Origin: Spirosoma aerolatum
Lineage (GTDB): Bacteria; Bacteroidota; Bacteroidia; Cytophagales; Spirosomataceae
Direction of reading: 5' to 3'
DNA length: 64,000 bases
Assembly: GCF_002056795.1 (NCBI RefSeq)
Contig: NZ_CP020104.1
Location: 941,001 to 1,005,000 of the forward strand
Each line of letters begins with the position of its first letter. The first letter of the stretch is position 1. A model generated the notes under the pieces. That model had not been told where the DNA came from. It searched no databases and was given only the letters and a program-made list of their open reading frames with translations. The translations under genes and the position numbers were made by a program. This document shows positions 6,740-44,814 of this stretch, one piece after another.

Positions 6740-6794
6740 ACCCCTTCTTTTGTCGGCCTGCTACTTCGTTCCTCAGTCTGACAAAACTGTTTCT

Positions 6795-9002
6795 TTATTT
6801 CAATACTACTTCACCCGTTTGAGCATCTAAAAGTAAGGTTGATCCGTGTTCCAGCGGAATGGTCACCAATTTACCACTTCTGAGCCGAAGCGTTCGTGTG
6901 CCACCATCCTTGGTATGCAGCAGGAGCAACCCGGAATTGGCGTACGTGAAATCGTTCTGTTCATTATAAATGTGGCAACCCGCCTGCCGGAAAATTTCGC
7001 GAAATCCGTCGGTTCCGTTAAGGGGGAGACCGCAGAAAAGCGACGTAAACGCTTTGGTTTTCTTACGGGCTATTATGACCTGTTTACTCCCCTGCAACTC
7101 AGCCAGCGATTCGGCCGTTTTATCGTTTACGACCACCAGTGGCTCTACGGAGCCGCTGAAATTATAGTCATAAGCAGGTTTAAGGAACGCAACACCTGGG
7201 GTCTGCTTCCCGTCGATACGTTCCAGATTCATGCCCGTCAGCGATTTGACAAAGGATAAATTCAACTGTTCGCCATTCGTATAACCCGTCAGGTAATTCC
7301 AGACGACGGTCCGGCCATCTTTGGCGACGTTTTTCAGAATAAACGTTCGTTGAGCATCCGTCAGCTTATAGACATTCATGAAAACCACCGCTTTGTACTG
7401 GGCCAGGTTGACCCGGTTCAGGTCGAAATCATAGACATGGTCGCCGACTGCACCCGAGCGCATAGCCTGCTCGATGGAATGATCCAGTACGTTGACCGTG
7501 ATGGGCAATGGTGCCGATTTCAGGTAATAGAACACATCCTGACTCCAGACATACAGCACGTCCGCTTCGGAATGATAGGGTACAGTCAGGCGCTTTTCGA
7601 ACAGTTCTTTTTCAGCCTTCATGGCTGCCAGATACGTCGGATCATCCCACCAGCCAAAGCCTTTCTGCGGGCCAAAATCATAGAACCAGAAACCGATACC
7701 CCGCATCAGGGGCAATAGCGCACACCGTTTCATGATGTTCGCATACGTAGTGTCGTAACGAGACGTATAGCGGATATTTTCAAAATCGTTTTTAAACAGA
7801 TAGCCGTTATCGATTTCGTCGAACCAGAGTTTACCATGGAGCAAAGTCGATTCGATGATCCCGCGTGAATTGCCGGAGCCACCCGCTTTACGGCTGTCGG
7901 GCCAATACGTCTGGGGAGCCGACAGATAATCGATGTACGGACTATCGAGAACCTGCTGAATAAACAGGTGACCGCCAACGGTTTGTCGATTGAATGTCAT
8001 GTGCAGGTAGCCATAGAAAATACCCGTAACCAGCGGTCGGGGCCAGTTTTCCTTCGCTAATCGGCAGAAGTAAATTGCATCGTCGGCCACGACCTGCTGC
8101 TGGGCGGTGAAATAATCGATGGTGCGTTGGTCCTGAACCGGGTCTTTGAAAAAACCGTCCTGCGTTTTGAGCCGCTCCGTTACGTTCGGTACGGTCGCAT
8201 TCTCAAATGTAACGCTTGTGGATTGCCAGGCTTTCTGAAACGCTGATGTCGTTTTGTACTTGGTTCGGAGCCAGTTGCGGAAGTAGCCCGTCATGGCCGG
8301 GCCAGTATCCGGGTCGTGTTCGATAAAGCCCCAATAATGCCATTCGCCATAAATGCCGCCCGCTATATGCATACCAATCAGGACGTTACCTTCTGGCGTT
8401 TTCGAAAGTTTCTGGCATAACTCAACTAGTTTCTGGCCCGATTCCTGCCGCCAGCGTGTGGATGCCAGACTGGCCCGTAAAGCCGCATGGATGTCGTGTT
8501 CTTCATTATGGTACGGAGGGCCAGCCCGCAAGGAGGTATCCACGGGTGTATCGGCATACTGAGTGCATTCTTCCGGGTGTGCTTTATTCCACCAAAAGGG
8601 CGCGTTGACGTGAATGCGTAGCACGACACCCGCATCGGGGCATTGGTCGAGTACCCCCCGAATTTGCCGCTGCGCCTTTCGAATATCGAGCGTATCGCTG
8701 TTTTTAGCCCAGATGTCTTCGAGCCACAAATCGACCTGAAACAGCCGAAATCCAATCTGACAAAAATTATGCAGGTTTCGGGCGGGCACCTCCTCCCACG
8801 ACCAGCGTCCGCCATAGGCATGGGTGAGCGCGTAAAACGTTGGCGTTTGCGGGTTCCCATTTACAAACAAGGTGGGTCGACCATTAAACGGCTTTATCTC
8901 CGCCGATTTGGGCGATTGGGCCAGCAGTGATTGACAGCAAAAAAGTAAACTAAGGATATAAATGCCCTTTACGCGCCATTGTCGACCTCTGTAGATTGTC
9001 AT
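6795..9002 (-). CDS. Secreted glycoside hydrolase, beta-galactosidase-like (GH42-like fold)
   Basis: About 735 residues from the ATG at 9,002, which overlaps the stop of the upstream esterase gene (ATGA). I prefer it to an upstream in-frame start because it is followed by a signal peptide (GIYILSLLFCCQSLLAQ). The central region looks like a clan-A TIM barrel. A Glu in GGIYGEWHYW could be the acid/base and a Glu in LWFDEIDNG the nucleophile. The following domain (YKAVVFMNVYKLTDAQ, GRTVVWNYLTGY) resembles the GATase-like trimerisation domain of GH42. The exact family and substrate cannot be set by eye. Coupling to an esterase suggests joint breakdown of a decorated glycan. Confidence 0.7.
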   Translation of the reverse strand: MTIYRGRQWRVKGIYILSLLFCCQSLLAQSPKSAEIKPFNGRPTLFVNGNPQTPTFYALTHAYGGRWSWEEVPARNLHNFCQIGFRLFQVDLWLEDIWAKNSDTLDIRKAQRQIRGVLDQCPDAGVVLRIHVNAPFWWNKAHPEECTQYADTPVDTSLRAGPPYHNEEHDIHAALRASLASTRWRQESGQKLVELCQKLSKTPEGNVLIGMHIAGGIYGEWHYWGFIEHDPDTGPAMTGYFRNWLRTKYKTTSAFQKAWQSTSVTFENATVPNVTERLKTQDGFFKDPVQDQRTIDYFTAQQQVVADDAIYFCRLAKENWPRPLVTGIFYGYLHMTFNRQTVGGHLFIQQVLDSPYIDYLSAPQTYWPDSRKAGGSGNSRGIIESTLLHGKLWFDEIDNGYLFKNDFENIRYTSRYDTTYANIMKRCALLPLMRGIGFWFYDFGPQKGFGWWDDPTYLAAMKAEKELFEKRLTVPYHSEADVLYVWSQDVFYYLKSAPLPITVNVLDHSIEQAMRSGAVGDHVYDFDLNRVNLAQYKAVVFMNVYKLTDAQRTFILKNVAKDGRTVVWNYLTGYTNGEQLNLSFVKSLTGMNLERIDGKQTPGVAFLKPAYDYNFSGSVEPLVVVNDKTAESLAELQGSKQVIIARKKTKAFTSLFCGLPLNGTDGFREIFRQAGCHIYNEQNDFTYANSGLLLLHTKDGGTRTLRLRSGKLVTIPLEHGSTLLLDAQTGEVVLK

Positions 9003-17148: not shown

Positions 17149-17928
17149 TCATAAGCTAGCCTGTTTTATAATATCAAGAAACAAAATCACTTTATTTCGA
17201 TCAGCTTTGTAAAACAAGAATGGCTCGACGTCTTTTGCCATGTCATCCATATCCAGCGTTGCACAGTGTGCTATGAGTCTTTCTTTTAAGGCATTGGCTG
17301 TATCGATCCCAATCTTCTGGTTGAGGTAGGCATAGTTTGGCTTGATCTGACGCCCCAGTAGAAAAACGACATCAAAGAAATCACGTCCTTTATTACGGGG
17401 ACGGTTGAGTATGGCATAAAACTTTTGCGCTAGAATAACATCAATCGGTGTCACAAAGATACGTGCAATCGTATCGAAGCGATTGAGCAGCACAGTTTCT
17501 GGCTTGAAAACGAAGTTCTGTGGCTCTGTATCCAGTTGAATTAATATTTTCTCCTCTTTATAACCGGACAAGCCGTGCTCAAATAGCATATTGGGGAACC
17601 TAATATAACAGTGGTACGCCCCTTTATTGACCGTTTTGAATTCAACCGTATAGCCCTGTAATTCGAGCCCTTCGGCAATCACAGTAGAAACCTGATCAAA
17701 TTCTTCTGTGGATATATTGAAGTTGTCAAAATCCAAATCTTCCGAAAAACGCTGATTATCGTGTACGAGCCGTAAGCATGTACCGCCTAAAAAAGCAAAC
17801 TGATTTCGGAAATCACTGTTGAACAAAATTTCCAGGATTCGACATTGAAGGTACTCGCGCAGCATGAACCGACGGGCTTGTTGCACATGCTGGGGGAAAA
17901 ATGCCTGAATGGATTGTAGGTTAATCAT
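17149..17928 (-). CDS. abiEii: AbiEii-type nucleotidyltransferase toxin
   Basis: 259 residues from the ATG at 17,928, chosen because it overlaps the antitoxin stop by 8 bases; the frame is open a little further upstream. It has the nucleotidyltransferase core of AbiEii/AbiGii toxins: GGTCLRLVHDNQRFSEDLDFD with the metal-binding Asp pair, and later the Lys-containing helix DVILAQKFYAILNRPRNKGRDFFDVVFLL. AbiEii toxins stop growth after phage entry; related toxins modify tRNA acceptor ends. It is the toxin of a type IV (non-contact) system with the gene upstream. Confidence 0.85.
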   Translation of the reverse strand: MINLQSIQAFFPQHVQQARRFMLREYLQCRILEILFNSDFRNQFAFLGGTCLRLVHDNQRFSEDLDFDNFNISTEEFDQVSTVIAEGLELQGYTVEFKTVNKGAYHCYIRFPNMLFEHGLSGYKEEKILIQLDTEPQNFVFKPETVLLNRFDTIARIFVTPIDVILAQKFYAILNRPRNKGRDFFDVVFLLGRQIKPNYAYLNQKIGIDTANALKERLIAHCATLDMDDMAKDVEPFLFYKADRNKVILFLDIIKQASL

Positions 17929-18538
17929 CGGACATCCGTTGAATGAGGTAGTGGGCAAGTTCGGTTATACGCTGATTACAATAGAATTCAGCATATTCCC
18001 GAATAATATTGGGTTGAGCGATTTCAGCTAAAATTGCCCAGTTGATCCGCAAGGCATCGATGTCGGTGGTATTATGCCACTGAGTATTAAGATAAATCGT
18101 ATCGAGAAGTGCTTTTTCGGGCTCTGCAATCAGGAGTGGTTTATTATTCCAACGTTCGATCCGGTAGCCGAAAAAGAGGGTTGGCTTGATGTGTTTATAA
18201 ACCCATTCACCAATAGGCGTTGAGAAAGACTTGGTTTTATGGGTTGATACCGAATAGGTTTGGTAGACCCCTTCGGGAATTAAGCCATAATAGCTGAGGG
18301 CTGACCAGAGCGAGATATAGGAGTCGCGGTAAATCCGGTTGGCTGTATAAAACGCCAACTGCTCGGTTAACGGCTGGTCTGTCCAGCGATAAAACCGATT
18401 GATGATTTTTTGAATGTAGTTTTTGGCTTGCCAGTCGGATAAACGTCGTGCATGGAAGTCAGGAAACTCTTTTTGCACTTCATGGAGTTCAATAACGCCG
18501 CTTTCCTGAAAGGCTCGCTGGAAGGTAACGAAGTCCAT
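17921..18538 (-). CDS. abiEi: AbiEi-type antitoxin/transcription factor
   Basis: 205 residues: an N-terminal winged-helix part (GVIELHEVQKEFPDFHARRLSDWQAKNYIQKI, then RFYRW) followed by the typical AbiEi region (SLWSALSYYGLIPEGVYQTYSVSTHKTKSF and PEKALLDTIYL). AbiEi proteins repress their own operon and neutralise AbiEii. The gene is upstream of, and overlaps, the toxin gene, as in known abiE operons. Confidence 0.83.
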   Translation of the reverse strand: MDFVTFQRAFQESGVIELHEVQKEFPDFHARRLSDWQAKNYIQKIINRFYRWTDQPLTEQLAFYTANRIYRDSYISLWSALSYYGLIPEGVYQTYSVSTHKTKSFSTPIGEWVYKHIKPTLFFGYRIERWNNKPLLIAEPEKALLDTIYLNTQWHNTTDIDALRINWAILAEIAQPNIIREYAEFYCNQRITELAHYLIQRMSDD

Positions 18539-23282: not shown

Positions 23283-23286
23283 ATGA
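23212..23286 (+). CDS. 24-residue upstream ORF coupled to the R-M gene
   Basis: Begins MKIKLDVSNRVRQ and ends with KFKPIK and TGA. The TGA overlaps the ATG of the type IIG gene at 23,283 (ATGA), so ribosomes finishing it could restart on the large gene. It is basic and has no recognised domain. It may be a regulatory leader peptide or chance. Confidence 0.35.
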   Translation: MKIKLDVSNRVRQTDHLLKFKPIK

Positions 23287-26200
23287 GTTTTACACCACTA
23301 AGACCCCGCCAAGTAATTAATAAGGCTTTTCTAAAAGTTAAACCTAACAGGCTTGATATCGAAAAATTCAAAAAGAATTTAATTACGGTATTAGACCAAA
23401 TACACGAATTAGAATCTGAAGAATTTCATAAAAATATTGTTTCACGTTTTCTAGAAACTACATATTACTCTCCAAATCATTACATTAATACAAAAGGGCG
23501 TAATGATCTAGTGATTCACAACGGGAATACCACTTATACTTCTGTTGGGGTAATTCTAGAAATAAAAAAGCCAGCGAATAAAGTAGAAATGCTAAAGTTG
23601 GGACAGCTTAATACCAAAGCTTTCCAAGAATTACTATTGTATTACTTGAGAGAAAGGATTACTAATAAAAACTTAGAAATCAAACATATTATTGCTTCAA
23701 ACCTTTACGAGTGGTTCATATTTGATGGTGCTATTTTCGAACGAGTTTTTGCCCAGAATAAAAAACTAGTTCAAAGATTTATTGATTTTGAAGAAGGAAG
23801 GTTAGGAGACCGTAAAACAGAATATTTCTATAAAGAAATTGCTGAACCGGCCATTTCTGCTATTCAGATTACAGTTCCTTTCACTCATTTTGATATTCGC
23901 GATTATGATAAGATTCTGCGTAATCACGACAAACAGGATGATCATAAGCTTATTGCTTTATACAAACTTTTATCTCCTGAGCATTTACTAAAGCTTCCTT
24001 TTAGTAATGACAGTAATTCACTTGATAAAGGATTTTATAGTGAGTTACTTCATATTATAGGGCTGACTGAAACCAAAGATGGTGGAAAAAAGATTATCGA
24101 GCGTAAAGTAGCTGTAGAGCGTAATAAGGGTTCGTTGCTTGAAAATGCTATTAATCAGATCGAGAGTTTGGACAAAATGTCTCGTTTGGAAAAACCAAGT
24201 CAATTTGGTTCAACATACGAAGAATGCCTTTTTAATATTACTCTTGAACTAGTCATCACGTGGGTAAACCGTATATTATTTCTTAAACTTCTAGAGGCTC
24301 AATTAATTAAATACAATTCACGATCTACTCATACAAAAAAAGGTGATTCTAGCTACTCATTTCTAAATATAGGTAAAATTAAAAATTTTGATGCCTTAAA
24401 CAGTCTATTCTTTGAAGTACTAGCAAGGAAGCCAGAAAGCAGAGACAAAGAGTATAGTAATATCTTTATAACAGTTCCTTATCTCAATAGTTCTCTTTTT
24501 GAACCAACTGATATTGAGCACGTTACTATTTTTGTGAGTAATCTAAGAGATGATTATACCTTGCCCATTTTGCCATCGACAATACTAAAGACCAAAGAGG
24601 GTAAAAAGCGAGCTGGTGAAATTAATGCCTTAGAATACTTTTTTGAATTTTTAAATGCTTATGAATTCAGTGGCGAAGGTTCAGAAGAAATTCAGGAGGA
24701 CAATAAGACGTTGATTAATGCATCGGTATTAGGCCTAATTTTTGAAAAAATTAATGGCTATAAAGACGGATCATTTTTTACACCTGGCTTTATAACTATG
24801 TATATGTGTCGGGAAACGATTAGACGAGCAGTTGTACATAAATTTAATGAGCTTAAAGGATGGAATTGTTCAGATTTAGATCAACTTTACGATAAAATTG
24901 AGGATAAAGTTGAAGCGAACCAAATTATCAATAGTTTGAGAATATGTGATCCTGCTGTTGGTTCAGGCCACTTTCTAGTATCTGCTTTAAATGAAATTAT
25001 TAGTATTAAGAACGATCTAAAGATTCTTTTTGATCGAACTGGTAAAAGGCGACTTCGCGATTATCATATTGAGGTTCTGAATGACGAGCTTATTATAACT
25101 GACGAAGATGGCTCGCTTTTTGAATATAATTTCAATAACCTCGAGAGCCAACGAGTTCAGGAGGCTATTTTTCATGAAAAACAAACGATAATTGAAAACT
25201 GCCTCTTCGGTGTTGATTTAAACCCGAATTCGGTAAAAATTTGTCGATTAAGATTGTGGATTGAATTATTAAAAAACTCTTATTATACCCCTTTAGGTAA
25301 TACAGTTCTTCAAGAACGAGCTTTAGAAACACTTCCTAATATTGATATCAATATCAAGTGGGGTAACTCTCTTATCAGCCGATATACATTGGATGCTGAT
25401 TTAAGCCAAGCCTTAAAAAAGAACAAATTATCGATTGAAGATTATAAAGCTGCTGTTCAGACCTATCGAAATGCAGAAAATAAAGAGCAAAAACGTGAAA
25501 TGGAACGATTGATCAATAGGATCAAAAGTGATTTTCGTACAGAAATAAGTAATAATGATCCTAAGAAGAAAAAGCTATCTAAGCTAACTGGTGAGTTTTT
25601 TAACATTACTCAAAGTCAATTATTTGCACCAAGTAAAACAGAAGCAAAGCTGAATAAGCAGAAGCAAGAAAAGCTTAAAAAGGAAATTACTCAACTCACT
25701 ACATATATCGAAGAAGTGAAAAACAATAAAATGTTTGAAACTGCATTCGAGTGGCGGTTTGAATTTCCAGAAATATTGAATGATGATGGTGACTTCGTTG
25801 GTTTTGATGTTCTTCTAGGCAACCCACCCTATATTCAGCTACAAAAATTGGGGCAAGAGAGTGAAAATCTGCAAAAGGTTGGCTATCAGACATTTGAGTC
25901 GATGGGGGATATTTATTCTTTGTTTTATGAGAATGGTTGGAATGTACTTAAAGAGAAAGGAATCCTCTGCTTCATCACATCAAATAAATGGATGAGAGCT
26001 GGGTATGGGGTATCAACAAGAGGTTTCTTTGGTGAAAAGACAAGCCCGCTTCTACTTATTGATTTTGCAGGGCAAAAAATATTTGAGTCTGCAACTGTTG
26101 AAACAAATATCCTGATGTTTTCTAAGGAGAAAAATCAAGGAAAAACGATTGCATGTATAGTGAAGGAAAATGTGTTAAATAATATGAGCGATTACGTTCG

Positions 26201-27089
26201 ACAACACGCCACGACTACCTCCTTTTCCGGGAGCGAAAGCTGGGTAGTGCTGAGCGAAATTGAGCAGCGGATTAAGGCTAAGATTGAGGCCGTAGGAACA
26301 CCCCTCAAAGATTGGGATATCGCCATCAACTACGGTATAAAAACTGGTTTCAATGACGCCTTTATCATTGATGGTGCTAAACGGGCAGAACTATTAAATG
26401 AAGATCCAAAATCCGCCGAAGTTATTCGACCGATACTTAGAGGGCGTGATATTAAGCGGTACTCTTATGAATTTGCTGACTTATATCTTATAGCTACTTT
26501 TCCAAGTTTAAAACTGGATATTGAGCAGCAATATCCAGCTATAAAAGGGCATTTATTAAGTTTTGGTAGAGCCAGATTGGAACAATCTGGAGGATCAGGA
26601 GCCCGTAAAAAGACTAATAATAAATGGTTTGAAACACAAGATAGTATAAGCTATTGGGAGGATTTTAATAGACAGAAAATTGTTTGGGGAGAAATATCTG
26701 ATAAAACCAAGTTTGCTATAGACTTAGAAGGTAAGTATATGAATGAAGCAACAACTTTTTTAATGGTTGGCGAATCACTTATTTATCTAGTTGGATACCT
26801 AAACTCAAAACTATCAGAATACCTTTTTTCAAAGATTGGGACTACTACAGGGGTTGGAACGATCCGATGGAAAAAATATACTATTGAACAAATGCTCATC
26901 CCTAGACTAGAGCCATCCAAGGAAAACGAATATCAAAAGAGAGTGTTAGGGGCTTTAAATTGCATTACTCTTGGAAAAGACTACAGCTTACTAACTAGTG
27001 AACTCGATAAGCTAATTTATGAACATTTAGAACTTACACCAGAAGAAATAGAGTTTATTGAATCTGGGAATGCTGAGACTGCTCAATAA
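23283..27089 (+). CDS. Type IIG restriction-modification enzyme (Eco57I-like), with switchable C-terminal recognition domain
   Basis: 1,268 residues combining cleavage and methylation. The N-terminus has a PD-(D/E)xK-like nuclease pattern (GRNDLVIHNG then GVILEIKKP) near residues 75-97. The N6-adenine methyltransferase has motif I DPAVGSGHFLVSAL near residue 557 and motif IV GNPPYIQL near 846. The C-terminal third is the target recognition domain (TRD). From base 26,186 the coding sequence enters a 249-bp repeat that recurs inverted at 27,695-27,943, so the TRD downstream of 26,434 can be exchanged by inversion. The exchanged form would also be in frame (3,152 + 640 bases = 1,264 codons including stop). 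An Mpi-like invertase gene follows. The coding region is A+T-rich. Confidence 0.9.
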   Translation: MSFTPLRPRQVINKAFLKVKPNRLDIEKFKKNLITVLDQIHELESEEFHKNIVSRFLETTYYSPNHYINTKGRNDLVIHNGNTTYTSVGVILEIKKPANKVEMLKLGQLNTKAFQELLLYYLRERITNKNLEIKHIIASNLYEWFIFDGAIFERVFAQNKKLVQRFIDFEEGRLGDRKTEYFYKEIAEPAISAIQITVPFTHFDIRDYDKILRNHDKQDDHKLIALYKLLSPEHLLKLPFSNDSNSLDKGFYSELLHIIGLTETKDGGKKIIERKVAVERNKGSLLENAINQIESLDKMSRLEKPSQFGSTYEECLFNITLELVITWVNRILFLKLLEAQLIKYNSRSTHTKKGDSSYSFLNIGKIKNFDALNSLFFEVLARKPESRDKEYSNIFITVPYLNSSLFEPTDIEHVTIFVSNLRDDYTLPILPSTILKTKEGKKRAGEINALEYFFEFLNAYEFSGEGSEEIQEDNKTLINASVLGLIFEKINGYKDGSFFTPGFITMYMCRETIRRAVVHKFNELKGWNCSDLDQLYDKIEDKVEANQIINSLRICDPAVGSGHFLVSALNEIISIKNDLKILFDRTGKRRLRDYHIEVLNDELIITDEDGSLFEYNFNNLESQRVQEAIFHEKQTIIENCLFGVDLNPNSVKICRLRLWIELLKNSYYTPLGNTVLQERALETLPNIDINIKWGNSLISRYTLDADLSQALKKNKLSIEDYKAAVQTYRNAENKEQKREMERLINRIKSDFRTEISNNDPKKKKLSKLTGEFFNITQSQLFAPSKTEAKLNKQKQEKLKKEITQLTTYIEEVKNNKMFETAFEWRFEFPEILNDDGDFVGFDVLLGNPPYIQLQKLGQESENLQKVGYQTFESMGDIYSLFYENGWNVLKEKGILCFITSNKWMRAGYGVSTRGFFGEKTSPLLLIDFAGQKIFESATVETNILMFSKEKNQGKTIACIVKENVLNNMSDYVRQHATTTSFSGSESWVVLSEIEQRIKAKIEAVGTPLKDWDIAINYGIKTGFNDAFIIDGAKRAELLNEDPKSAEVIRPILRGRDIKRYSYEFADLYLIATFPSLKLDIEQQYPAIKGHLLSFGRARLEQSGGSGARKKTNNKWFETQDSISYWEDFNRQKIVWGEISDKTKFAIDLEGKYMNEATTFLMVGESLIYLVGYLNSKLSEYLFSKIGTTTGVGTIRWKKYTIEQMLIPRLEPSKENEYQKRVLGALNCITLGKDYSLLTSELDKLIYEHLELTPEEIEFIESGNAETAQ
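26186..26434 (+). repeat. Left 249-bp inverted repeat of the TRD-switch cassette
   Basis: Reverse-complement identical, as read by eye, to 27,695-27,943. It encodes the start of the TRD (motifs VVLSEIEQRIKAKIEAVG and INYGIKTGFNDAFIID). Because it is coding and in the same phase on both arms, crossover anywhere within it keeps the frame. Confidence 0.93.
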
Positions 27090-27105
27090 ACTCTATTTCT
27101 TCTGG
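27039..27105. repeat. Tail-to-tail inverted repeat at the two C-terminal ends
   Basis: Two 23-bp arms (27,039-27,061 and 27,083-27,105) around a 21-base spacer. Both cassettes encode TPEEIEFIE at their C-termini, and the two coding regions overlap tail to tail at 27,055-27,089. The structure could form a hairpin terminator for both directions. Confidence 0.75.
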
Positions 27106-27943
27106 AGTTAAAGAATATAATTGAAATATCATTTCATTTAACAACTGCTGTTCCTGCTTAACAGACTCGCCTTTACCTACTTTTTCAATCAGTCTTTCTG
27201 CTTGATCAAGAATGCCTTGTTGAAGAGGGGCTGCAATAAGAGGGACTGGGAGTTGCTCAATAAACATAGGCTTGTACTCAAAATATCCTCCATTCCTTGT
27301 AACTCCTAGCTTTCTTATATAGTAATCAGCAACTTCGGAATTCAATATTGCCAGTAAGTATTTGCTTGCTGGTACTATCATAGGACAAGGAGCATTAACA
27401 AATAAACCTTCTTCAGCTATAGCATACGAGGCACTCAAATTAAGATTACCCCAAACAATTTTCTGTCTATTAAAATCCTCGATATAAGCACAGTTGCGAA
27501 GATTGTATGGGGTTAAGCCTTTGTCAAGCCGTTTTTCCAACTCTGGCCAGAACTTATCTAAATGTCTTTTTATAGCTGGGTAGTCACTGATAATGATCGG
27601 CCTTATACCTTTCTCCTTTATCCCATTATGGATGTTTATCAGCCATAAATCAGCAAAATCATACCCATATCGTTTTATATCTCTGCCACGTAAAATCGGT
27701 CGAATAACTTCGGCGGATTTTGGATCTTCATTTAATAGTTCTGCCCGTTTAGCACCATCAATGATAAAGGCGTCATTGAAACCAGTTTTTATACCGTAGT
27801 TGATGGCGATATCCCAATCTTTGAGGGGTGTTCCTACGGCCTCAATCTTAGCCTTAATCCGCTGCTCAATTTCGCTCAGCACTACCCAGCTTTCGCTCCC
27901 GGAAAAGGAGGTAGTCGTGGCGTGTTGTCGAACGTAATCGCTC
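27055..27943 (-). pseudogene. Silent alternative TRD cassette of the type IIG gene
   Basis: On the minus strand the frame opens at the right repeat and reads the same TRD start as the live gene (VLSEIEQRIKAKIEAVG), then a different TRD (RYGYDFADLWLINIHNGI, VWGNLNLSASYAIAEEGL, GGYFEYKPMFIEQLPVP), ending TPEEIEFIEQSQHSQIQ. An in-frame TAA lies only a few bases outside the repeat and there is no methyltransferase part, so in this orientation it is a store of sequence rather than a working gene. An internal GTG could still give a free TRD of about 275 residues. Inversion would fuse it to the live gene. Confidence 0.88.
27695..27943 (-). repeat. Right 249-bp inverted repeat of the TRD-switch cassette
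   Basis: Mate of 26,186-26,434. It ends 89 bases before the invertase gene. The enclosed segment between outer edges is 1,758 bp. Confidence 0.93.
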
Positions 27944-27980
27944 CTTTATTGTATAAAAATATGGTTTGCTTTTTTATAGA

Positions 27981-27988
27981 TAATTTTG
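27981..27988 (+). promoter_or_regulatory. Possible Bacteroidota -7 element for the invertase gene
   Basis: TAATTTTG fits the Bacteroidota -7 consensus TAnnTTTG, 45 bases before the invertase ATG. A TTTG lies upstream but its spacing is shorter than usual, so the match is partial. Confidence 0.3.
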
Positions 27989-28032
27989 GTTTAAATCAAA
28001 CACCCAATTTTCACTATATAATCCAATAACCA

Positions 28033-28635
28033 ATGATTTACGGATACATCCGCGTTAGTACCGATAAGCAAACAGTCGAAAACCAACGCTACGAGTTAAA
28101 CCAGTTTTGTGAGAAGAGTGTACTAGTAATTGATAAATGGATTGAAGAAACTATCTCCGGCTCGAAGAATCTGCAAGACCGAAAACTTGGGAAGCTCTTA
28201 AAAAAAATGAAAAAAGGAGATGTTCTTATTTGTTCCGAACTATCAAGACTTGGACGTAACCTATTGATGATCATGGGGATTTTAAATGAATGTATGAACC
28301 GAGATATCCAAGTTTGGACAATTAAAGACAATTATCGCCTTGGTAGCGATATTAACTCTAAAGTGTTAGCATTCGCTTTTGGGCTTTCTGCCGAAATAGA
28401 GCGAAATCTTATTTCACAGCGTACGAAAGAAGCATTGGCTCGAAAAAAAGCGGAAGGAGTAATCTTAGGTCGCCCAGTAGGGAGTAAATCTTCTAAAACC
28501 AAACTTACTGGTCATGACAAAAAAATCAAAGACTTACTGGACAAGCGTGTTTCCTACAGCGCCATTGCACGAATACTTGGTGTACACAGATTAACTGTGG
28601 CTAGTTATGCTACACAACATGGACTGAAGAACTAA
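28033..28635 (+). CDS. Serine DNA invertase, Mpi-like
   Basis: 200 residues: resolvase/invertase catalytic domain (IYGYIRVSTDKQTVENQRYEL with the nucleophile Ser; LICSELSRLGRN; AFAFGLSAEIERNLISQRTKEAL) and a C-terminal HTH (VSYSAIARILGVHRLTVASYAT). It resembles the Bacteroides Mpi invertases that flip promoters or shufflon genes. It lies 89 bases from the right arm of the R-M cassette and is the likely enzyme for that inversion. Homologous recombination over 249 bp could also act. Confidence 0.9.
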   Translation: MIYGYIRVSTDKQTVENQRYELNQFCEKSVLVIDKWIEETISGSKNLQDRKLGKLLKKMKKGDVLICSELSRLGRNLLMIMGILNECMNRDIQVWTIKDNYRLGSDINSKVLAFAFGLSAEIERNLISQRTKEALARKKAEGVILGRPVGSKSSKTKLTGHDKKIKDLLDKRVSYSAIARILGVHRLTVASYATQHGLKN

Positions 28636-29166: not shown

Positions 29167-29973
29167 ATGCATCTAGACAAAACGAAGCTTCTTCCACTCA
29201 TTGAAAAAACCAAGACTTTAAACACAAAGTCTCAGTACAATTTTGCAGTCCCTTCTAAATCTAATGTATCTAAACATACTGCTGAGGATCAGCTTCGTAC
29301 GCTGCTTTCTGGATTGTCGGGATGGTTAAATAAACATCCAAATCTTGTTAACGGATCAACTTACGGCCGGAAATTAGCGGAATTGAAGAGTAGGCTTCCT
29401 GACAAAAAAACTTACCATTACGGCTCGGGCCTTTCCGATAGTGATACGGAAGCAATAAGGTCTGAATTACTGACCCTCTTAAAAGCAATCGATCGTGAGA
29501 ATAAATCCATTTTTATTGTTCATGGGCGTGATCATGATATGCGTGAGAAGGTGCAAAGTGCCTTGCGGGGTTTAGGCCTTGCTACTGTTGTGCTCGACAG
29601 AGAAGACGATTTAGGGCAAACGGTTATTGAAAAATTCATTAAAGAATCAGCACGATGTGAATATGCTGTTGTCCTCTGCTCGGCCGACGATGAAGGGCGA
29701 TTGCGCACTAAAGCGCGTTCTTCTAAAGATGCTCCCTCACCACGCCCACGTGCTCGGCAAAATGTAGTATTAGAGTTAGGGTATTTTTTGGCTAAAGTGG
29801 GACGTGAAAATCTGTTCGTTCTACATCCAGAAGAATCCATAGAACAACCGAGCGATTTTCTGGGTGTTATCTATGAGAAGTATGATAAAGCTGGGCAATG
29901 GAAAGACAAATTGGTGCGAGCTTTAAGAGGTTCGGGGTTTAAGATTCCCCAAAAGCTTGCTGAGCGCATCTAA
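29167..29973 (+). CDS. TIR-like nucleotide-binding protein (PF10137/CAP12 type), candidate defence effector
   Basis: 268 residues. The first about 115 are helical and may act as a sensor or oligomerisation part. The C-terminal domain begins SIFIVHGRDHDMREKVQSAL and continues with ATVVLDREDDLGQTVIEKF, CEYAVVLCSADDEG, ARQNVVLELGYFLAKVG and NLFVLHPE. That is the predicted TIR-like nucleotide-binding domain with the catalytic Glu in VVLELGYF. Such domains cleave NAD in anti-phage systems. It stands alone, with no cyclase next to it, so its trigger is unknown. Confidence 0.8.
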   Translation: MHLDKTKLLPLIEKTKTLNTKSQYNFAVPSKSNVSKHTAEDQLRTLLSGLSGWLNKHPNLVNGSTYGRKLAELKSRLPDKKTYHYGSGLSDSDTEAIRSELLTLLKAIDRENKSIFIVHGRDHDMREKVQSALRGLGLATVVLDREDDLGQTVIEKFIKESARCEYAVVLCSADDEGRLRTKARSSKDAPSPRPRARQNVVLELGYFLAKVGRENLFVLHPEESIEQPSDFLGVIYEKYDKAGQWKDKLVRALRGSGFKIPQKLAERI

Positions 29974-33513: not shown

Positions 33514-34443
33514 ATGACCAAACCGATTACCCGCAAAACCTCATCAAGCCCTGCCGAACAGCCTCAACAAGATATTTACGCTCGTGTTACGGCTAAAATC
33601 CTAACCGATCTGGAACAAGGTAATCTCTCGTGGCGCAAGCCTTGGCACTCCGAACACATGACTGGTCAGGTCATGCGTCCTCTGCGCTGGAATGATATTC
33701 CTTATACCGGCATCAATACGCTCATTCTCTGGAATGCTGCCAGTGAGCAAGGCTTTACCTCTCCCTATTGGATGACTTTCAAGCAGGCCACCGACATGAA
33801 AGCCGCTGTCTGTAAAGGTGAGAAGGGCACCCAAATTGTCTATGCCGATAAATTCACCAAAGCAGAGGAAGATAGTAATGGCGAAATTAAATCTAGCCAG
33901 ATTCCCTTTCTCAAATGCTACACCGTCTTCAATGCGTCTCAGATCGAAGGCTTGTCCGATGGTTTCTATAAAGCACCTGAACCCGTTGTTAAAAATCAGC
34001 AAGCGCGTCATCAGGAACTTGAACAGTTCTTTGCGCAGACGAAAGCCGACATTTATACCGGTTCCAAAGCGTGTTACACGCAGAGCACCGACCGCATCCA
34101 AATGCCGCCATTCGAAAGCTTTGAAACAGCCATGCGTTATTATGCTGTTTTAGCCCATGAACTCACCCATTGGACAAAAGCGCCTACGCGGTTGAACCGA
34201 GACCTTGGCAAAAAGCACTATGGTGATGAAGGGTACGCTAAAGAAGAATTGGTGGCCGAACTAGGAGCCTGCTTCTTGGCGGCTGATCTTGGCTTTGAAC
34301 CGCAACCGGAAGAACATCATGCGGCTTATATCCAGTCCTGGCTACACGTGCTCAAGGATGACAAACGCTTTGTCTTTCAGGCCGCATCCCACGCGCAAAA
34401 GGCGGTTGAATACATTCATGCCCTGCAATGCCCTCGCCCTTGA
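33514..34443 (+). CDS. ArdC-like antirestriction protein with zincin metallopeptidase domain
   Basis: 309 residues. The N-terminal ArdC ssDNA-binding domain reads VTAKILTDLEQGNLSWRKPW, NDIPYTGINTLILW and GEKGTQIVYADKF. The C-terminal zincin domain has HELTHW (HExxH-like) with ELVAELGACFL downstream. ArdC proteins coat incoming single strands and counter restriction during conjugation. That suits an element that carries its own R-M gene and must enter restricting hosts. Confidence 0.87.
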   Translation: MTKPITRKTSSSPAEQPQQDIYARVTAKILTDLEQGNLSWRKPWHSEHMTGQVMRPLRWNDIPYTGINTLILWNAASEQGFTSPYWMTFKQATDMKAAVCKGEKGTQIVYADKFTKAEEDSNGEIKSSQIPFLKCYTVFNASQIEGLSDGFYKAPEPVVKNQQARHQELEQFFAQTKADIYTGSKACYTQSTDRIQMPPFESFETAMRYYAVLAHELTHWTKAPTRLNRDLGKKHYGDEGYAKEELVAELGACFLAADLGFEPQPEEHHAAYIQSWLHVLKDDKRFVFQAASHAQKAVEYIHALQCPRP

Positions 34444-38698: not shown

Positions 38699-39097
38699 TC
38701 ACTCGCTTTTGAGTAAGATTTCAGTCACAAGACTAATCTGTGTTTGCCCATCAACCTTATAGCGTGGGTTACTGACTCTAATCATTTTGAGGCTATGATC
38801 GAACAATAAATCGAACAAGGGGCTTAGCTGATACCCTTTCAACGTGACGATATGACCACTGAAATAAAGTAGTATTTCATTCAAATTGTCAGCGATTACC
38901 AAGTCAACCGATACCAGATAGGCGTAATTGAAAAATGCCCGTCGTCCGTTTTCCCATACGAAGCAGAGATTCCGTACAGTACTGTCTATATCATGCAACT
39001 CTGTGCTACCAACCGTGTAATCCGTAAGATTATCGCTGGTTGTATCCACTACCTCATCTTGCGAGAAATTCGCCCTAAAGTTTTGGACTTGGTGCAT
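38699..39097 (-). CDS. Hypothetical protein coupled to the TrwC relaxase
   Basis: 132 residues, overlapping the end of the relaxase gene by 23 bases. Mixed alpha/beta, soluble (LVSVDLVIADNLNEILLYFSG). No family recognised. The overlap suggests a transfer-related role. Confidence 0.5.
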   Translation of the reverse strand: MHQVQNFRANFSQDEVVDTTSDNLTDYTVGSTELHDIDSTVRNLCFVWENGRRAFFNYAYLVSVDLVIADNLNEILLYFSGHIVTLKGYQLSPLFDLLFDHSLKMIRVSNPRYKVDGQTQISLVTEILLKSE

Positions 39098-41840
39098 GAC
39101 CGTTTGGCTTTCGCTGCATAGGCTTTGGCTTGCTTGGGGTATTAATACGCTTGATTGATGGTTTCACCTTCGGTGGTGCAGGCCGTGTTGTTCTGATGAT
39201 ATGCTCGACAGCATTTCGTTTGGTATTGTTTCGGTTCACCAGTTCTAATGCTGACAATCGCTCTCCTGCTTCTGATGCATGAGCCAGCAAAGCGGCTTTA
39301 TCATCGGTATAGATATGCACACCATCCCGCGCCCGTGACACCGACACATAGAATTGGTTAAGATTGGTAGCCGAAAAGCTGCTAGCCGGTTGCGCAATAA
39401 AGACCTCATCGACGGTCTTTCCTTGTGCGGCATGAGAAGTCAGGCAGTAGCCGTGAGCAATATGGCCGAAATTGGCTGGAACCGTATAGGTGGCTTTGCT
39501 TGCCTTGTTGTGTAGGCGCAAAGCCCCGTTCGGCTCAAGGGCGATAACGTCCAGCATTTGTCCATTCGTTAGTCGTTTTTTATTAGCGTCATATCCATTA
39601 CGAGTAATGCGTACTTTATCGCCTTTAGATAGCGCGATTTTGTTGGGTCGGTACACGTCAAACAGATCCATGCGATCCAGGGGAAGAGAGGTTTGCTGGC
39701 CGCTAGTATCCTGAATGTGGACTATGCTATCAACCACAGAATGAACCTTCCACCGTGAACCACGCTCAATGCCTGCTATATTCTGGCTGAACTGGATGAT
39801 CTGACCGTTGCGATAATTCCGATGATCGCTTTTTTCGGCCAACGTCAAATTAGTATTGGCCAGTTGCGTCAAGGTTGTTTCCCCGCTAGCAATACGTCCG
39901 GTCTGGCGCAATGTCTCGCGAATGGCTTTGGTGACCTGTTCGCCTTCCTTATGTGTCGGTGAAATCACCAGAGCCGTTTTCCCTTTTTTCAAGGCAGCTA
40001 GATAATCGTTAGCTAAGGCGGTAAAGGAATTGGCGGGATCAAGAGTCTTGATCGCTCCCATGCCATCTAGCACCGAAAACGCTTCACTAATTTTGTTATC
40101 AGCCAAGGCTTGTACGGCTTTGCGATAATCCAGATTGCGTTGCCGATAGATACGACTTACTTCAGCGGATCGGATACCCGCTACCGTATTCAAAATGCGC
40201 AAAGCATCCCCGCGAATGACACTGCTATGTTGTTTGGTATCTCCGCTTAAAATCAGGCGAGCATTTTTCTGAATGGCCAGTTCCAGTAGGGCGGTCATAT
40301 CCTTGGTATTCAACAGTCCGGCTTCATCCACCCATAACACGCCATCCAATAGGCTGTTTTGCAGTTCGAGTGCGGACAATAGTTTGGCAACAGTTTCGGC
40401 TTCGCTAAAGCCTTCATCCCGCAATACGTCCCGTGCGGCTTGCGCCGTCGGTGCGACAACGGTGACTTTATGACCTGCTTCCTCAATCAGCCGGATGGCT
40501 TCTTTCATGAGTGTGGTTTTGCCGGTTCCGGCTCGGCCTCGGATGATCGACACGCGATTGGTAGTAGTCAGCACATGGACTACAGCCTCATGCTGTTCAC
40601 CTTCCAGTGCGATTACAGGGGCAACCGGATAAAGCGGGGGCAGATTGCCTTTGCCTTGTTGTGCTAAAGCCACCATGCGTTTCTCTTCACGCAACACCTC
40701 TTTGGTGGTGCAGAGCGTTTTGGCTCCATCCTTGACCCGAATAATCCGCTTATCGTCGGTAAAGTAGTCGGTAATCTGGTCAATAGTCAGCGTTGGATGG
40801 CCCAACCCCTGCCGATAGGCAACTTCCAGAATCCGCCGATCCTGCATGACCGAAACGCGCTCAAAGCGCATCGCCAACGCATGATCGACACATTGTTTAG
40901 GCGAGGGTGGTGTTATAGGTTTGATGGGGGTAAAACGGATTGGCTGCTCACCTTCATCTTTATCGCGTATTCCTAACCCGAATATTTGTTTGCGCCATTC
41001 AGCCTTCAGTTGGGTCATGGTTAAACCCTTTTGCTTTTTGGAGCGGGTTCGTGCTCCTAATTGATCCAGTTCGGCCGGATCGGTAATGCCAAGTTCTTTG
41101 GCAAGCTGGCCGATTTCGTTGGTGCGTTTGGAAAACAGGTCAATGATGTGTTCGGGGACACCAGCGACTTCAAAGGCTTTATCGGTACGTCGGATGCGAT
41201 AGCCCAACTCAACCAGCTTATCGGCCAGTCGTTTGTGAAACCGTGCCTGATAATACGGCATGTCCTGTTTGATCGACCGGAATTGTCCCGCCTTAAACTG
41301 CTGTTCAACCGCATCCCACGTCACATTGAATACAAACGAATGGCAGTGGAGGTGAGGGTCTGGCACTAATCCATCAACGGGTCTTGCCGTTTGGTGGATA
41401 AAATCGGCCCAGAGTAGTTCACCCGTTGGTCGGTCTTCATCCATGCCGTTTTTACGAACCCGTGTCTGAGCATCGGCTTCAATATCCAGCATGGTGGCAC
41501 GAACGCTTTCCTGAAACGCATCCAGAATGTGATTATCATCCGTCAACGCCTGAAGGATCGAAACCGACTTCGGACAGTGGAAATTGATGTCGTACCCGAC
41601 CGTGCGATTATCTTTTTTACGAGGTGTAAGGGCCTGGCCCGTGATTGGGTTAATGTTTTCGCAGAGGGCGTGAAAGGCGTTCTTCGTCGCTACCCCTGTA
41701 ATGCTAAAACGAGCGGCTATCCGTCCATAGAAACACCCAGGCTGTTCCTGATCATTTAGGTAATAGTCAGATTGGTGCAAAGAGTCGTTGAAATACTCTT
41801 TTGCCTGTCCAGCCGAGGTGCTTTGAATCATACGGATCAT
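39075..41840 (-). CDS. TrwC-type (MOBF) relaxase with RecD-like helicase
   Basis: 921 residues; the ATG at 41,831 is an alternative start. The relaxase domain has the Tyr region QSDYYLNDQEQPGCFYGRIAARF, NFHCPKSVSILQAL and the His triad DPHLHCHSFVFN. The helicase part has Walker A IIRGRAGTGKTTLMKEA, ILSGDTKQHSSVIRG and the C-terminal HAAQGKTVDEVFIAQP. Such enzymes nick oriT, stay linked to the 5' end and unwind the strand for transfer. It is a second relaxase beside MobA, of a different class, and fits the idea that two elements fused. Confidence 0.9.
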   Translation of the reverse strand: MIRMIQSTSAGQAKEYFNDSLHQSDYYLNDQEQPGCFYGRIAARFSITGVATKNAFHALCENINPITGQALTPRKKDNRTVGYDINFHCPKSVSILQALTDDNHILDAFQESVRATMLDIEADAQTRVRKNGMDEDRPTGELLWADFIHQTARPVDGLVPDPHLHCHSFVFNVTWDAVEQQFKAGQFRSIKQDMPYYQARFHKRLADKLVELGYRIRRTDKAFEVAGVPEHIIDLFSKRTNEIGQLAKELGITDPAELDQLGARTRSKKQKGLTMTQLKAEWRKQIFGLGIRDKDEGEQPIRFTPIKPITPPSPKQCVDHALAMRFERVSVMQDRRILEVAYRQGLGHPTLTIDQITDYFTDDKRIIRVKDGAKTLCTTKEVLREEKRMVALAQQGKGNLPPLYPVAPVIALEGEQHEAVVHVLTTTNRVSIIRGRAGTGKTTLMKEAIRLIEEAGHKVTVVAPTAQAARDVLRDEGFSEAETVAKLLSALELQNSLLDGVLWVDEAGLLNTKDMTALLELAIQKNARLILSGDTKQHSSVIRGDALRILNTVAGIRSAEVSRIYRQRNLDYRKAVQALADNKISEAFSVLDGMGAIKTLDPANSFTALANDYLAALKKGKTALVISPTHKEGEQVTKAIRETLRQTGRIASGETTLTQLANTNLTLAEKSDHRNYRNGQIIQFSQNIAGIERGSRWKVHSVVDSIVHIQDTSGQQTSLPLDRMDLFDVYRPNKIALSKGDKVRITRNGYDANKKRLTNGQMLDVIALEPNGALRLHNKASKATYTVPANFGHIAHGYCLTSHAAQGKTVDEVFIAQPASSFSATNLNQFYVSVSRARDGVHIYTDDKAALLAHASEAGERLSALELVNRNNTKRNAVEHIIRTTRPAPPKVKPSIKRINTPSKPKPMQRKPNGHAPSPKL

Positions 41841-42156
41841 GTATGATTCTATACATCGGAAATGCTCAGCGGCTGGGTAGATTGTTAGTTTGTTATAGGT
41901 GGTAACAGAGTGATAAAGGTATACCTAATTAATAGTGAGACTGTTAAATAAAATCCGTCAGACATCTTCCCTTAGATTAGCCTAAGGCTAGTGTTGAGGT
42001 TATAGTTTTATGGTCTTTAGATATTGATTGGTCATGCCTTATGGTAGGAGGCAAATTGCTTCATTAGATTGAACCATCCCAATCTAACTTAATTTCTAAA
42101 AAACATTCATCAATAAATCATATATTTAGAATGAAAAAGATTTTTAATTGAATGAT
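41841..42156. other. Divergent intergenic region between relaxase and trypsin-NACHT genes
   Basis: About 315 bases with no ORF. It must contain the promoters of both divergent genes. An oriT for the TrwC relaxase might also be expected here, but I saw no convincing inverted repeat. Composition drops to A+T-rich toward the right. Confidence 0.4.
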
Positions 42157-44814
42157 ATGAGGGACAATGAACTTACAGCCATACTAAAAGAATACACTGT
42201 AAGAATTGAGACAAAGACAAGTGGGGGAACAGGCTTTTTCATTGCTCCAAATATGATTATTACCTGTTTACATGTTATAGATATACCATATGAAGTCTAT
42301 TGGAAAGATAGAAAAATAAATACTACTATTGCCGTTTCTACTGAAAAATATATAGATTTATGTATTCTGAAGGTTGAAGAAGATATATATAATACATGCG
42401 TAATGATAGGGTCTCTAAATAGTATAGGAGATACTCTGTATAGTTACGGGTATCCAGAAGATTACAGGACAGGAGATTCTCTAAGCGTGGAGTATGAAGG
42501 TTATTCAAGCACAGGATACAAAAATTATCAGTTAATAAAATTGAAAAGAGGGCAAATAAAGCCTGGTTTTAGTGGTGCCCCCTTACTTAATTTAAGAACA
42601 GGTTTAGTTTGTGGTATGATTAAAACTACAAGAAACAAAGCAATAGATTTAGGTGGTAGAGCGATATGTTTAAATGAAATACAAGAAAATGTAAACGAAT
42701 TAGACTTTGTATTTCAAAAAAATAATGAATTTAATAAATACAATAGGAAATGGTATAATATGCTTACTGACAACCAGAAGAAGGAGATTGGCATATACAA
42801 AATATATATACAAGAAAAAGACATTTCTATAGAGAATTTAATAAGTAATTCAAAAGAAAGAATGGAGAGTATCTGTTCTAATTTTATCTCTGGCTCTAAC
42901 TTAGTTAGATTAGCGGATCTAATTAAAAGTGACTTTACTTTAAATTTTAAAACTGTAATAATTGAAAATAAGAAAAAAAAAGAAGTAGAATTTATAAATT
43001 ATTGTATTGAACGGATCACGGATGCAGCTTCATTGTCGAAAATTCAGCATCAGAAGTTTGTAATATTAGGTGATCCTGGCTTTGGAAAATCTACATTACT
43101 ATATAAACTATATTATGATTTATTACAGAAATTATATAATGAAGAAATAGGATTTATACCTATACATATTGATTTACATGATTATGCAGATGACCAAAGT
43201 TTTGGTACAAAGGAGTGGACTTATAAGTATCTAGACTCGATAACTGAGAATGAGAATGTTACTTGGTCTATAATGCCAAATAAAAAATCAATATACAATT
43301 TGACGTTATTTCCTTATTTTATTCTTGATTCTTTAGATGAATATTTGGCTGATTGTACTCCATCAGAAGTTAACTCTAGATTAGGCAAATATATTTTTGG
43401 GTTAGCCAACATCATTTCGTGCCGGACTAGATATTTCGATACTTATTTAGCTATGTCAAATTTTTCTTCCCAATTTGAAAAATGTTATTTATCAAATTGG
43501 GAAGAAAAATATACAATAGAGTATACAAAATGGTTCTTGGAGCGTATAGGATATGAGGTAATTTCAAATTTAAATGCTTATAACATATTTGAAATAATTC
43601 AAAAATCAGAAAATTTGAAGGAGATATGTAAAGTACCATTAAGATATAACATGACACTTGAAACTTTATCGAGTAGCTTTATGAATTTTGATTTAGTCGA
43701 AAGCTTAAATTCGCTATATGATAATTATATATATGGTTGGTTATCAAGAGAAGCTTCAAGGGTAGGTAATATATTGAGTATAGAAGATAAGATATATTCT
43801 CTTGAAATAATATCTTGGGAGTTCTACGAAGAAGGCCAGATAGGAAATGATATACAAAAAAATTCGTTTTCTCTACCTGAGATGCGTAGTTTTTTGGAGA
43901 ATGATAAATACCTAAAGAAAAAATATAATTACAGAAAAGATATTACTTCTGATTTAGCATTAAGGTCAATTTTATCTATACAAAGAATAGAATTAAATCA
44001 AATTCTGCTAAAATTTACTCATAAGTCTTTTCAAGAATTTTTTGTTGCTAAATATATATATAGCTTAATGCGTAATAGCTCGGCTAAGCTTGCTACTTGT
44101 TTAAGGCAACACATTTCGCAGGAAGTAGAACAGTTTTTGAAAGAATTTATTAGTAATATTAATACTAACATTAGATTTTTAACTTCAACTACAGAAATAT
44201 TTATTGAAGCATACAATATGAGTAGTGAAAAAAGAGGCGATTCTAATATTGAGAAAAGTAGAAAAAGATTGGCCAGAAGTCAATTAGCGTATAATATGGG
44301 TCACCTAAAAGGTAAGAACGCCTACGATTTCTTAGTTGAACAATTACTTTATAGAGAAAAAGATGAATTTATAAAAAGGAGTATCATTATTGGCCTAGCT
44401 TTTGGAGGTAATGATCAGTTCCTCAATGACTATGTTGATATGCTTAGAAATGAGACAAATTCAAGATTGAACGATATCAATGTAGGTAGCCAATTAACCT
44501 ATTTTGGTGACCAACCTTTTGAGGTACTGTATCCAGAGAAAGACCAAGGCCTTAGGAAATGTAGAGGAACAGTTTCGAAGCTCTTGCTACAACTTGATAA
44601 TAAAAAAAATAATGCAGCTAGTTGGCGACTAGATCTCTATACAATTATTTATATTGGAAAGTATAGAAGTCAATCTAGCGAGGACTTTTCAGAAGTTTTT
44701 AAAGAAAAGATTTATTTGTTCAATGCAATAATTGAGAAATTTAAAAGTGAACAGATTGAATGGCCAGAGATCTTTGATAGTGAAGAATTAATAAAGAAAT
44801 ATAAATTTATTTGA
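42157..44814 (+). CDS. Trypsin-NACHT STAND protein, candidate anti-phage sensor-effector
   Basis: 885 residues from the ATG at 42,157; a TTG nine bases upstream is less likely. Residues 1-180 are a trypsin-like protease: GGTGFFIAPNMIITCLHV (His), YIDLCIL (Asp) and PGFSGAPLL (Ser). A NACHT NTPase follows, with Walker A LGDPGFGKSTLL near residue 306 and Walker B FILDSLDEYL near 390, then a helical region to the end (LKFTHKSFQEFFVAKYIY is typical of NACHT C-terminal helices). Protease-STAND fusions are known or predicted conflict proteins, where sensing of an invader assembles the NTPase and frees the protease. A Trypco1 protein gene lies downstream in the same gene string. A+T-rich. Confidence 0.88.
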   Translation: MRDNELTAILKEYTVRIETKTSGGTGFFIAPNMIITCLHVIDIPYEVYWKDRKINTTIAVSTEKYIDLCILKVEEDIYNTCVMIGSLNSIGDTLYSYGYPEDYRTGDSLSVEYEGYSSTGYKNYQLIKLKRGQIKPGFSGAPLLNLRTGLVCGMIKTTRNKAIDLGGRAICLNEIQENVNELDFVFQKNNEFNKYNRKWYNMLTDNQKKEIGIYKIYIQEKDISIENLISNSKERMESICSNFISGSNLVRLADLIKSDFTLNFKTVIIENKKKKEVEFINYCIERITDAASLSKIQHQKFVILGDPGFGKSTLLYKLYYDLLQKLYNEEIGFIPIHIDLHDYADDQSFGTKEWTYKYLDSITENENVTWSIMPNKKSIYNLTLFPYFILDSLDEYLADCTPSEVNSRLGKYIFGLANIISCRTRYFDTYLAMSNFSSQFEKCYLSNWEEKYTIEYTKWFLERIGYEVISNLNAYNIFEIIQKSENLKEICKVPLRYNMTLETLSSSFMNFDLVESLNSLYDNYIYGWLSREASRVGNILSIEDKIYSLEIISWEFYEEGQIGNDIQKNSFSLPEMRSFLENDKYLKKKYNYRKDITSDLALRSILSIQRIELNQILLKFTHKSFQEFFVAKYIYSLMRNSSAKLATCLRQHISQEVEQFLKEFISNINTNIRFLTSTTEIFIEAYNMSSEKRGDSNIEKSRKRLARSQLAYNMGHLKGKNAYDFLVEQLLYREKDEFIKRSIIIGLAFGGNDQFLNDYVDMLRNETNSRLNDINVGSQLTYFGDQPFEVLYPEKDQGLRKCRGTVSKLLLQLDNKKNNAASWRLDLYTIIYIGKYRSQSSEDFSEVFKEKIYLFNAIIEKFKSEQIEWPEIFDSEELIKKYKFI

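Follow-up and report, generated by a model that had tools for sequence, protein, structure and literature searches.

The type IIG restriction-modification gene of Spirosoma aerolatum described here is very probably part of a self-contained specificity switch, in which an Mpi-like invertase would invert DNA at a short site, S1, and two further elements, S2 and S3, very likely act as additional exchange points. Comparison of related loci lends good support to a switch between two cassettes by site-specific inversion. In the proposed mechanism, reading of the type IIG gene continues into an ON cassette, behind which a second cassette (OFF) lies silent and reversed. The Mpi-like serine invertase would recombine short matching sites of the two cassettes, so that the DNA between them is inverted and the other recognition end is joined in frame to the same nuclease-methyltransferase body. 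S1, at the outer end of each repeat arm, would be the primary site. S2, at the border of arm and TRDa, and S3, at the border of TRDa and TRDb, are similar in sequence and would allow segments to reassort; exchange at S3 would swap the distal half of the recognition domain alone. The sequences themselves show the anatomy, the reading frame, its conservation among loci, an inverted pair from nature and mosaic segments. We infer three of the steps, namely that this invertase is the agent, that it uses S2 and S3, and that specificity changes. Since one chain reads, marks and cuts, cleavage and marking should change specificity together.

The window, i.e. the whole analysed stretch of 64,000 nucleotides, contains the gene in its current ON form at 23283..27089 on the plus strand, an open reading frame (ORF) of 1268 aa. 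The Pfam domains of the protein are DUF7149 (residues 7-243), DUF7814 (244-478), Eco57I (774-934) and TaqI_C (1050-1204). It matched the PADLOC model REase_MTase_IIG over residues 1-1262 with an E-value of 4.4e-275, in agreement with the type IIG assignment of the first-pass annotation. An adenine methyltransferase domain with NPPY and a C-terminal recognition domain are both found in one chain; the N-terminal Pfam domains are DUFs, and a D...ExK-like stretch (NDLVI...LEIK) was read by eye. Two other identities were rejected. The best score for BREX PglX was 83.2 bits against a cut-off of 500, the other three models were also below their cut-offs, and the only PglZ-domain match of the genome is 3.9 Mb away from the locus. 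A type I hsdS identity was dismissed for the window, in which both the methyltransferase chain and the OFF cassette contain TaqI_C and no Methylase_S is present.

The first-pass annotation had reported perfect inverted repeats of 249 bp enclosing a 1,758-bp segment, and the coordinates proved exact when the repeats were compared again: the left arm is at 26186..26434 (plus strand; the "arm" segment, from S1 to S2), the right arm, which belongs to the OFF cassette, at 27695..27943 (minus strand), and the segment spans 26186-27943. Identity ends at once on the outward side of the 249 bp (307 bp are 93% identical). A perfect inverted repeat of this length is far beyond chance. In the ON cassette, the arm is followed on the plus strand by TRDa (26447..26657; cluster 6 in the segment clustering described below) and TRDb (26690..27086; cluster 11); the OFF cassette has its TRDa at 27481..27682 (cluster 5) and its TRDb at 27055..27448 (cluster 4; stop codon 27055-27057), both on the minus strand. 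A second recognition end on the minus strand had also been claimed and, indeed, a 275-aa ORF (27055-27882) starts there with GTG within the repeat and encodes a second TaqI_C domain (PF12950, E 1.1e-13). Past the repeat, the two recognition ends are 34% identical. Inversion in silico gave an ORF of 1263 aa that ends at 27074, as had been calculated against the present 1268 aa; the alternative frame, whose disruption had been named as grounds for discarding the idea, is thus open in the assembled genome. Another perfect inverted repeat, 32 bp long and shared by the two recognition domains (26658-26689 and 27449-27480), had been overlooked.

The invertase gene (28033..28635, plus strand, 200 aa) starts 89 bases past the end of the repeat at 27943, at the distance given in the first-pass annotation. 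Its assignment to the Mpi family is upheld by the NCBIfam model "master DNA invertase Mpi family" (NF009949; 344.2 bits, cut-off 272), and the resolvase N-terminal domain PF00239 is present. The mobile-element setting that had been proposed is likewise supported by conjugation genes in the window: two relaxases within ~12 kb (TrwC type, 39075-41840; MobA/VirD2 type, 50008-51441), a TraG-type coupling protein (47532-49460) and integrases. The two relaxases and the coupling protein possibly belong to two nested mobile elements. The same window that holds the restriction-modification system also encodes an ArdC-type anti-restriction protein (33514-34443). Downstream of the invertase, a TIR-domain protein (29167-29973; Pfam CAP12/Pycsar-type TIR, PADLOC PDC-S35) is likely a second defence gene. 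An AbiEii toxin gene and its upstream partner, which is without a Pfam match, probably form an AbiE-type toxin-antitoxin pair (17149-18538). At 42148-44814 a trypsin-like peptidase is fused to a STAND/NACHT-like NTPase, the STAND and NACHT matches being below the Pfam cut-off; this layout is known from defence proteins.

A search of the same taxonomic family for the type IIG protein (E 1e-20) found matches in 64 of 222 genomes. Stretches were taken from 20 of these loci; 17 have the same backbone with neither an invertase nor a reversed second end, one (L057) ends at a contig end, and two (L055 and L056) have the arrangement on a different methyltransferase backbone, the repeats measuring 211 and 256 bp and the invertases sharing 65% and 60% identity with that of S. 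aerolatum. A scan of named genomes by invertase alignment confirmed at least 526 relatives, of which the best 80, with 67-90% identity, were kept. An ON and OFF cassette pair was found in 25 of these 80 and a single cassette in 15, whereas another 25 have at least 1.5 kb upstream of the invertase and no recognised cassette, which counts against the switch reading; the remaining 15 have no cassette and a shorter upstream stretch. The backbones of the 25 pair loci are IIG in eight cases, with a helicase match in the same stretch in 12 and with neither in five; for the helicases of L056 and L059 the HKD+Snf2 model was the best match. Foldseek-based matches were considered among the best 50 listed. 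Together with the window, L055 and L056 there are 28 pair loci, of which 22 were dissected. L078 was excluded because of the weak similarity of its domains, and L072, L073, L074, L096 and L113 because their cassettes are cut by contig ends or have collapsed repeats. In the 21 loci besides the window the arrangement is kept and the alternative end is open.

Several loci outside this set should be mentioned. Collapse or deletion seems to have affected L068 and L133; in L133 (Mucilaginibacter flavus, ~3150-3204) a IIG ORF of 962 aa is directly followed by the invertase and a recognition end was not found there, a state that reflects either a deletion or a collapsed assembly. In L112, a close relative of the invertase is flanked by a 42-bp inverted repeat (3102-3143 / 4144-4185); since the repeat flanks the invertase gene itself, the gene may flip with its segment. 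Among viral contigs, cassette or methyltransferase matches were found in four of 67 loci taken; the IMG/VR contigs L170, L157, L158 and L199 have cassette pairs near the invertase, and in three the methyltransferase faces the invertase.

We consider it hardly conceivable that the arrangement is an assembly artefact of collapsed or mis-joined repeats. Repeats do seem to break draft contigs, as 13 of the 15 one-cassette loci have less than 1.3 kb upstream of the invertase. The S. aerolatum genome, however, is one contig of 7,959,595 bases (7.96 Mb), in which a DNA search found the cassette at this locus only, and the same layout is found in plasmids recorded as complete and circular. A point against the switch reading is that this assembly contains a single orientation.

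S1 was first spotted by eye and searched for afterwards. In the window, it reads AGCGATTACGTTCGACAA in the ON arm (26187..26204, plus strand), and its copy in the OFF arm (27925..27942, minus strand) has its outer end 90 bp before the start codon of the invertase. In 19 of the 22 dissected loci each arm carries the motif AGCG(A/T)TT (with GGCG in L106) at its outer end, and all 19 have it in frame 0 of the ON-side ORF. L105, L110 and L121 have no S1 pair; their pairing element is S2, which is in frame, too. The distance from S1 to the invertase is mostly 76-99 bp, with outliers from 28 to 136. At the aligned column, S1 was found in 19 of 22 switch loci but in none of 17 invertase-free relatives, several of which align poorly there. 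After inversion in silico the OFF cassette is open in 22 of 22 dissected loci; the ORFs of L106 and L135 are short now and become long by inversion, and those of L060 and L066 are shorter both before and after, because the reading frame starts late in these records. An S1-like sequence is also found with a different gene family: L098 (Capnocytophaga leadbetteri), which is without a cassette, has an hsdS pair, adjoined by an invertase of the same clade, with a 42-bp inverted repeat (6568-6609 / 7902-7943) that begins GGGCGTTTGTTTTTGACA.

How much the arms share around S1 bears on the role of the long repeat. Seven of the 19 loci share only 5-13 bp at S1, and 13 share only 5-26 bp; therefore, the long repeat was ruled out as the general recombination site. 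Across the loci compared, the common feature of the putative switch is the short S1 element rather than the long repeat. Of the earlier description, the repeat-bounded cassette stands and the long repeat as its essential feature does not, S1 being what 19 of 22 loci have in common. The same counts speak to an inversion by RecA across the 249-bp repeat, with the invertase as a bystander that acts elsewhere. Identity over 249 bp suffices for homologous recombination, and the identity of the two arms in the window, L056 and L093 points to gene conversion; yet frame and invertase are kept in the 13 loci with only 5-26 bp around S1, and the invertase clade repeatedly adjoins cassette pairs. We regard RecA-dependent inversion as quite improbable and retain inversion by the adjacent invertase at S1 as the probable route.

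Two Lactococcus plasmids, pJM1F and pUCCL629A, have the same invertase accession and a helicase-linked backbone. Their flanks are collinear at 91.6% and 93.1%, and the S1-S3 block that is ON in pJM1F corresponds, starting from S1, to the reversed OFF block of pUCCL629A, with 99.2% identity over 496 bp. The reciprocal block also matches in reverse (85% over 535 bp). Outside S1 each side retains its own flank, and the ends (TRDb) differ past S3. Read at the level of sequence, this pair shows an inversion event seen in nature. That it consists of two plasmids rather than one population, has the helicase-linked backbone and differs in TRDb as well weakens it as evidence for the S. aerolatum locus. 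Two further plasmids, pUCCL635A and pLLUC147A, have the same methyltransferase accession, and within the stretch taken neither an OFF cassette nor an invertase was found. pUCCL635A is 95% identical to pUCCL629A through S3, then has another distal end, and carries a hybrid arm, as read by eye. In addition, when two Mucilaginibacter records with IIG backbone were compared, the domain that is ON in the first and the domain that is OFF in the second were 74% identical. That the OFF cassette is a dead duplicate, i.e. the silent remnant of a past duplication in a locus that has lost switching, is very improbable given the natural inverted pair, the perfect repeats and the open frame, which is intact in the window and in the 19 S1 loci.

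S2 and S3 are likely used by the invertase as further exchange points, as their sequence and codon usage suggest, and homologous recombination could mimic this use. In the window, S2 reads ACCGATACTTAGAGGGCG in the ON cassette (26429..26446, plus strand) and ACCGATTTTACGTGGCAG in the OFF cassette (27683..27700, minus strand), and S3 is the 32-bp perfect inverted repeat noted above (ON copy on the plus, OFF copy on the minus strand). The three elements align with each other without gaps. When ~1,500-1,900 positions were scored with a matrix made from S1 only, S3 was in the top three for 22 of 34 cassettes and S2 for 18 of them; a coding motif near base 170 often outscored both. Synonymous codon constraint, determined for 32 cassettes against their own codon usage, is concentrated in three islands that coincide with S1, S2 and S3; the S1 island is biased because the cassettes were cut there. 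Four of the 36 cassettes had been dropped as duplicates, namely the OFF copies of the window, L056, L093 and L114, the arms of L114 being nearly, not fully, identical. In S2, Ile is encoded by ATA in 29 of 32 cases, Arg by CGA in 24 of 32 and Pro by CCG in 20 of 32; in S3, Glu is encoded by GAG in 14 of 15 and Gln by CAG in 18 of 24. A single constrained column outside the elements (Ser 18, AGT in 13 of 20) counts against this pattern. The invertase-free relatives searched for an S2 codon control had no matching motif and hence provided no control.

At S3, 13 of the 22 loci have 22-32 bp of perfect inverted identity, between domains that are only 24-55% identical within a locus. The rule applied had flagged 16 loci; L055, L056, L079 and L136, whose repeats are not at S3, were not counted, and L121, which the rule had missed, was added. 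Inversion at S3 in silico kept the frame in 11 of 11 judgeable loci of the 13; the other two are L106, whose ORF ends short of S3, and L093, where the partner of the OFF cassette in the S3 repeat is an extra piece. This piece (6689-7062), located directly downstream of the ON stop codon, is an open half-cassette with its start at S3 and a normal-looking end; as judged from this layout, it is a spare TRDb. In L135 (Ruminococcus bromii YE282, 6408-6437), the ON end consists of the left part of S1 joined out of frame to the right part of S2 and is perhaps a trapped off state from an S1 x S2 exchange, in one draft contig.

These data have to be weighed against a simple two-state switch, in which inversion takes place at S1 only or at any point of the long repeat. 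On that view, the conservation of S2 and S3 has other causes or they are ends of homology, and the mosaics are products of horizontal transfer and homologous recombination. On its S2 side, the long repeat does end where homology ends, and the consensus is loose across the genome, with five matches (two of them S3 of this locus) versus three for a reversed control; the three matches elsewhere look like chance, and the one inspected is in an unrelated stretch. The codon constraint at S2 and S3, the perfect S3 repeats between dissimilar domains, the three loci with S2 as sole pairing element and the spare half-cassette of L093, which begins at S3, argue against it. Homologous recombination also acts and could make S2/S3 mosaics, since the Lactococcus plasmid L218 has a hybrid arm (by eye), a point in favour of the two-state switch. 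Taken together, the two-state switch appears possible but rather doubtful.

Reassortment of segments was analysed in 34 cassettes that were cut at S2 and S3 into arm, TRDa and TRDb (two of 36, L071_ON and L082_ON, in which the S3 motif was not clear, were left aside) and clustered by single linkage, with identity thresholds of 65% for TRDa and 50% for TRDb. The three large TRDa clusters (12, 9 and 6 members) are each found behind both arm types and are each paired with six or seven TRDb clusters; conversely, all seven TRDb clusters with more than one member are found with more than one TRDa cluster. In all 15 loci in which both cassettes could be cut, the two TRDa are in different clusters. 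Mosaic pairs combine a TRDa identity of 92% with a TRDb identity of 27%, or 39% with 62%. The change point is 1-12 residues past the Phe of S3 in 12 of 12 pairs, which were picked for contrast; among pairs sharing TRDb it is at S3 in none of eight, which counts against S3 exchange and favours the two-state switch. Placed on CamA, arm, TRDa and TRDb each touch different base pairs.

Returning to the multi-site switch, the in-silico states of the window comprise four different full-length proteins of 1268, 1263, 1266 and 1265 aa. The number is four because the arms are identical here, so that a flip at S2 yields the same protein as one at S1; loci with differing arms could produce eight enzymes. 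The S. aerolatum locus therefore probably has more than two states on the predicted proteins. The first-pass annotation had proposed a two-state specificity switch; its in-frame alternative end is retained, and two is probably too few, as S3 would lead to four proteins. We lean, if only slightly, towards a three-site serine-recombinase shufflon within single-chain restriction enzymes and related methyltransferases, with three exchangeable segments per cassette that each contact different base pairs, a mismatched S1 x S2 exchange as off state, and the module occurring in type IIG, helicase-linked, plasmid and virus-contig systems. In such a shufflon, S1 x S2 exchange would perhaps shift the frame; two cassettes, each of less than 1 kb, would encode up to eight recognition sequences, as the three segments contact different base pairs, and spare half-cassettes as in L093 can add more.

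If true, this would provide a natural combinatorial code for the CamA/BseCI-type recognition domain, in which exchange would take place in units of arm, TRDa and TRDb, each with contacts to different base pairs. Predicting and rearranging the specificity of restriction enzymes would become directly testable from natural mosaics and methylomes. Cells and mobile elements would gain a fast means of changing which DNA they reject and how their own genome is marked, by a route that is best known from type I systems. The literature searched, which fell short of most subscription papers, contained no account of this arrangement.

To our knowledge, the specificity of the methyltransferases CamA and M.BseCI is fixed. 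Pneumococcal SpnIII/SpnD39III are type I hsdS invertons. Milman, Yelin and Kishony (2023) reportedly predicted inversions in type II restriction-modification genes among new families of gene-altering programmed inversions. A type IIG enzyme of Campylobacter jejuni is reportedly phase-variable as well (Anjum et al. 2016). It is switched on and off by slippage of a repeat tract and, unlike in the S. aerolatum proposal, is not known to change its recognition domain by inversion. Mpi of Bacteroides fragilis and the S. aerolatum invertase belong to the same serine-recombinase family, as judged by the NCBIfam cut-off, but the latter adjoins a coding cassette. The B. fragilis shufflon BB produces eight HsdS combinations and has an adjacent tyrosine integrase (PMC3090145); inverting specificity cassettes in type I systems, including this eight-way HsdS shufflon, are well known. 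In Helicobacter pylori, the S subunits of type I and type IIG systems undergo domain movement, in which recognition domains change position by way of DNA repeats; this was seen between strains, and the authors are undecided between site-specific and homologous recombination (PMC3077401). As described there, the S subunit is separate, unlike in the single-chain S. aerolatum enzyme. The S. aerolatum locus resembles type I hsdS invertons and shufflons in its inverted silent specificity cassettes and several repeat sets and, if S2 and S3 are exchange points, in a combinatorial recognition. It differs in that the S subunit of type I systems is separate whereas the switch proposed here is within a single-chain enzyme, that a serine invertase adjoins, and that the recognition domain itself would be cut into segments.
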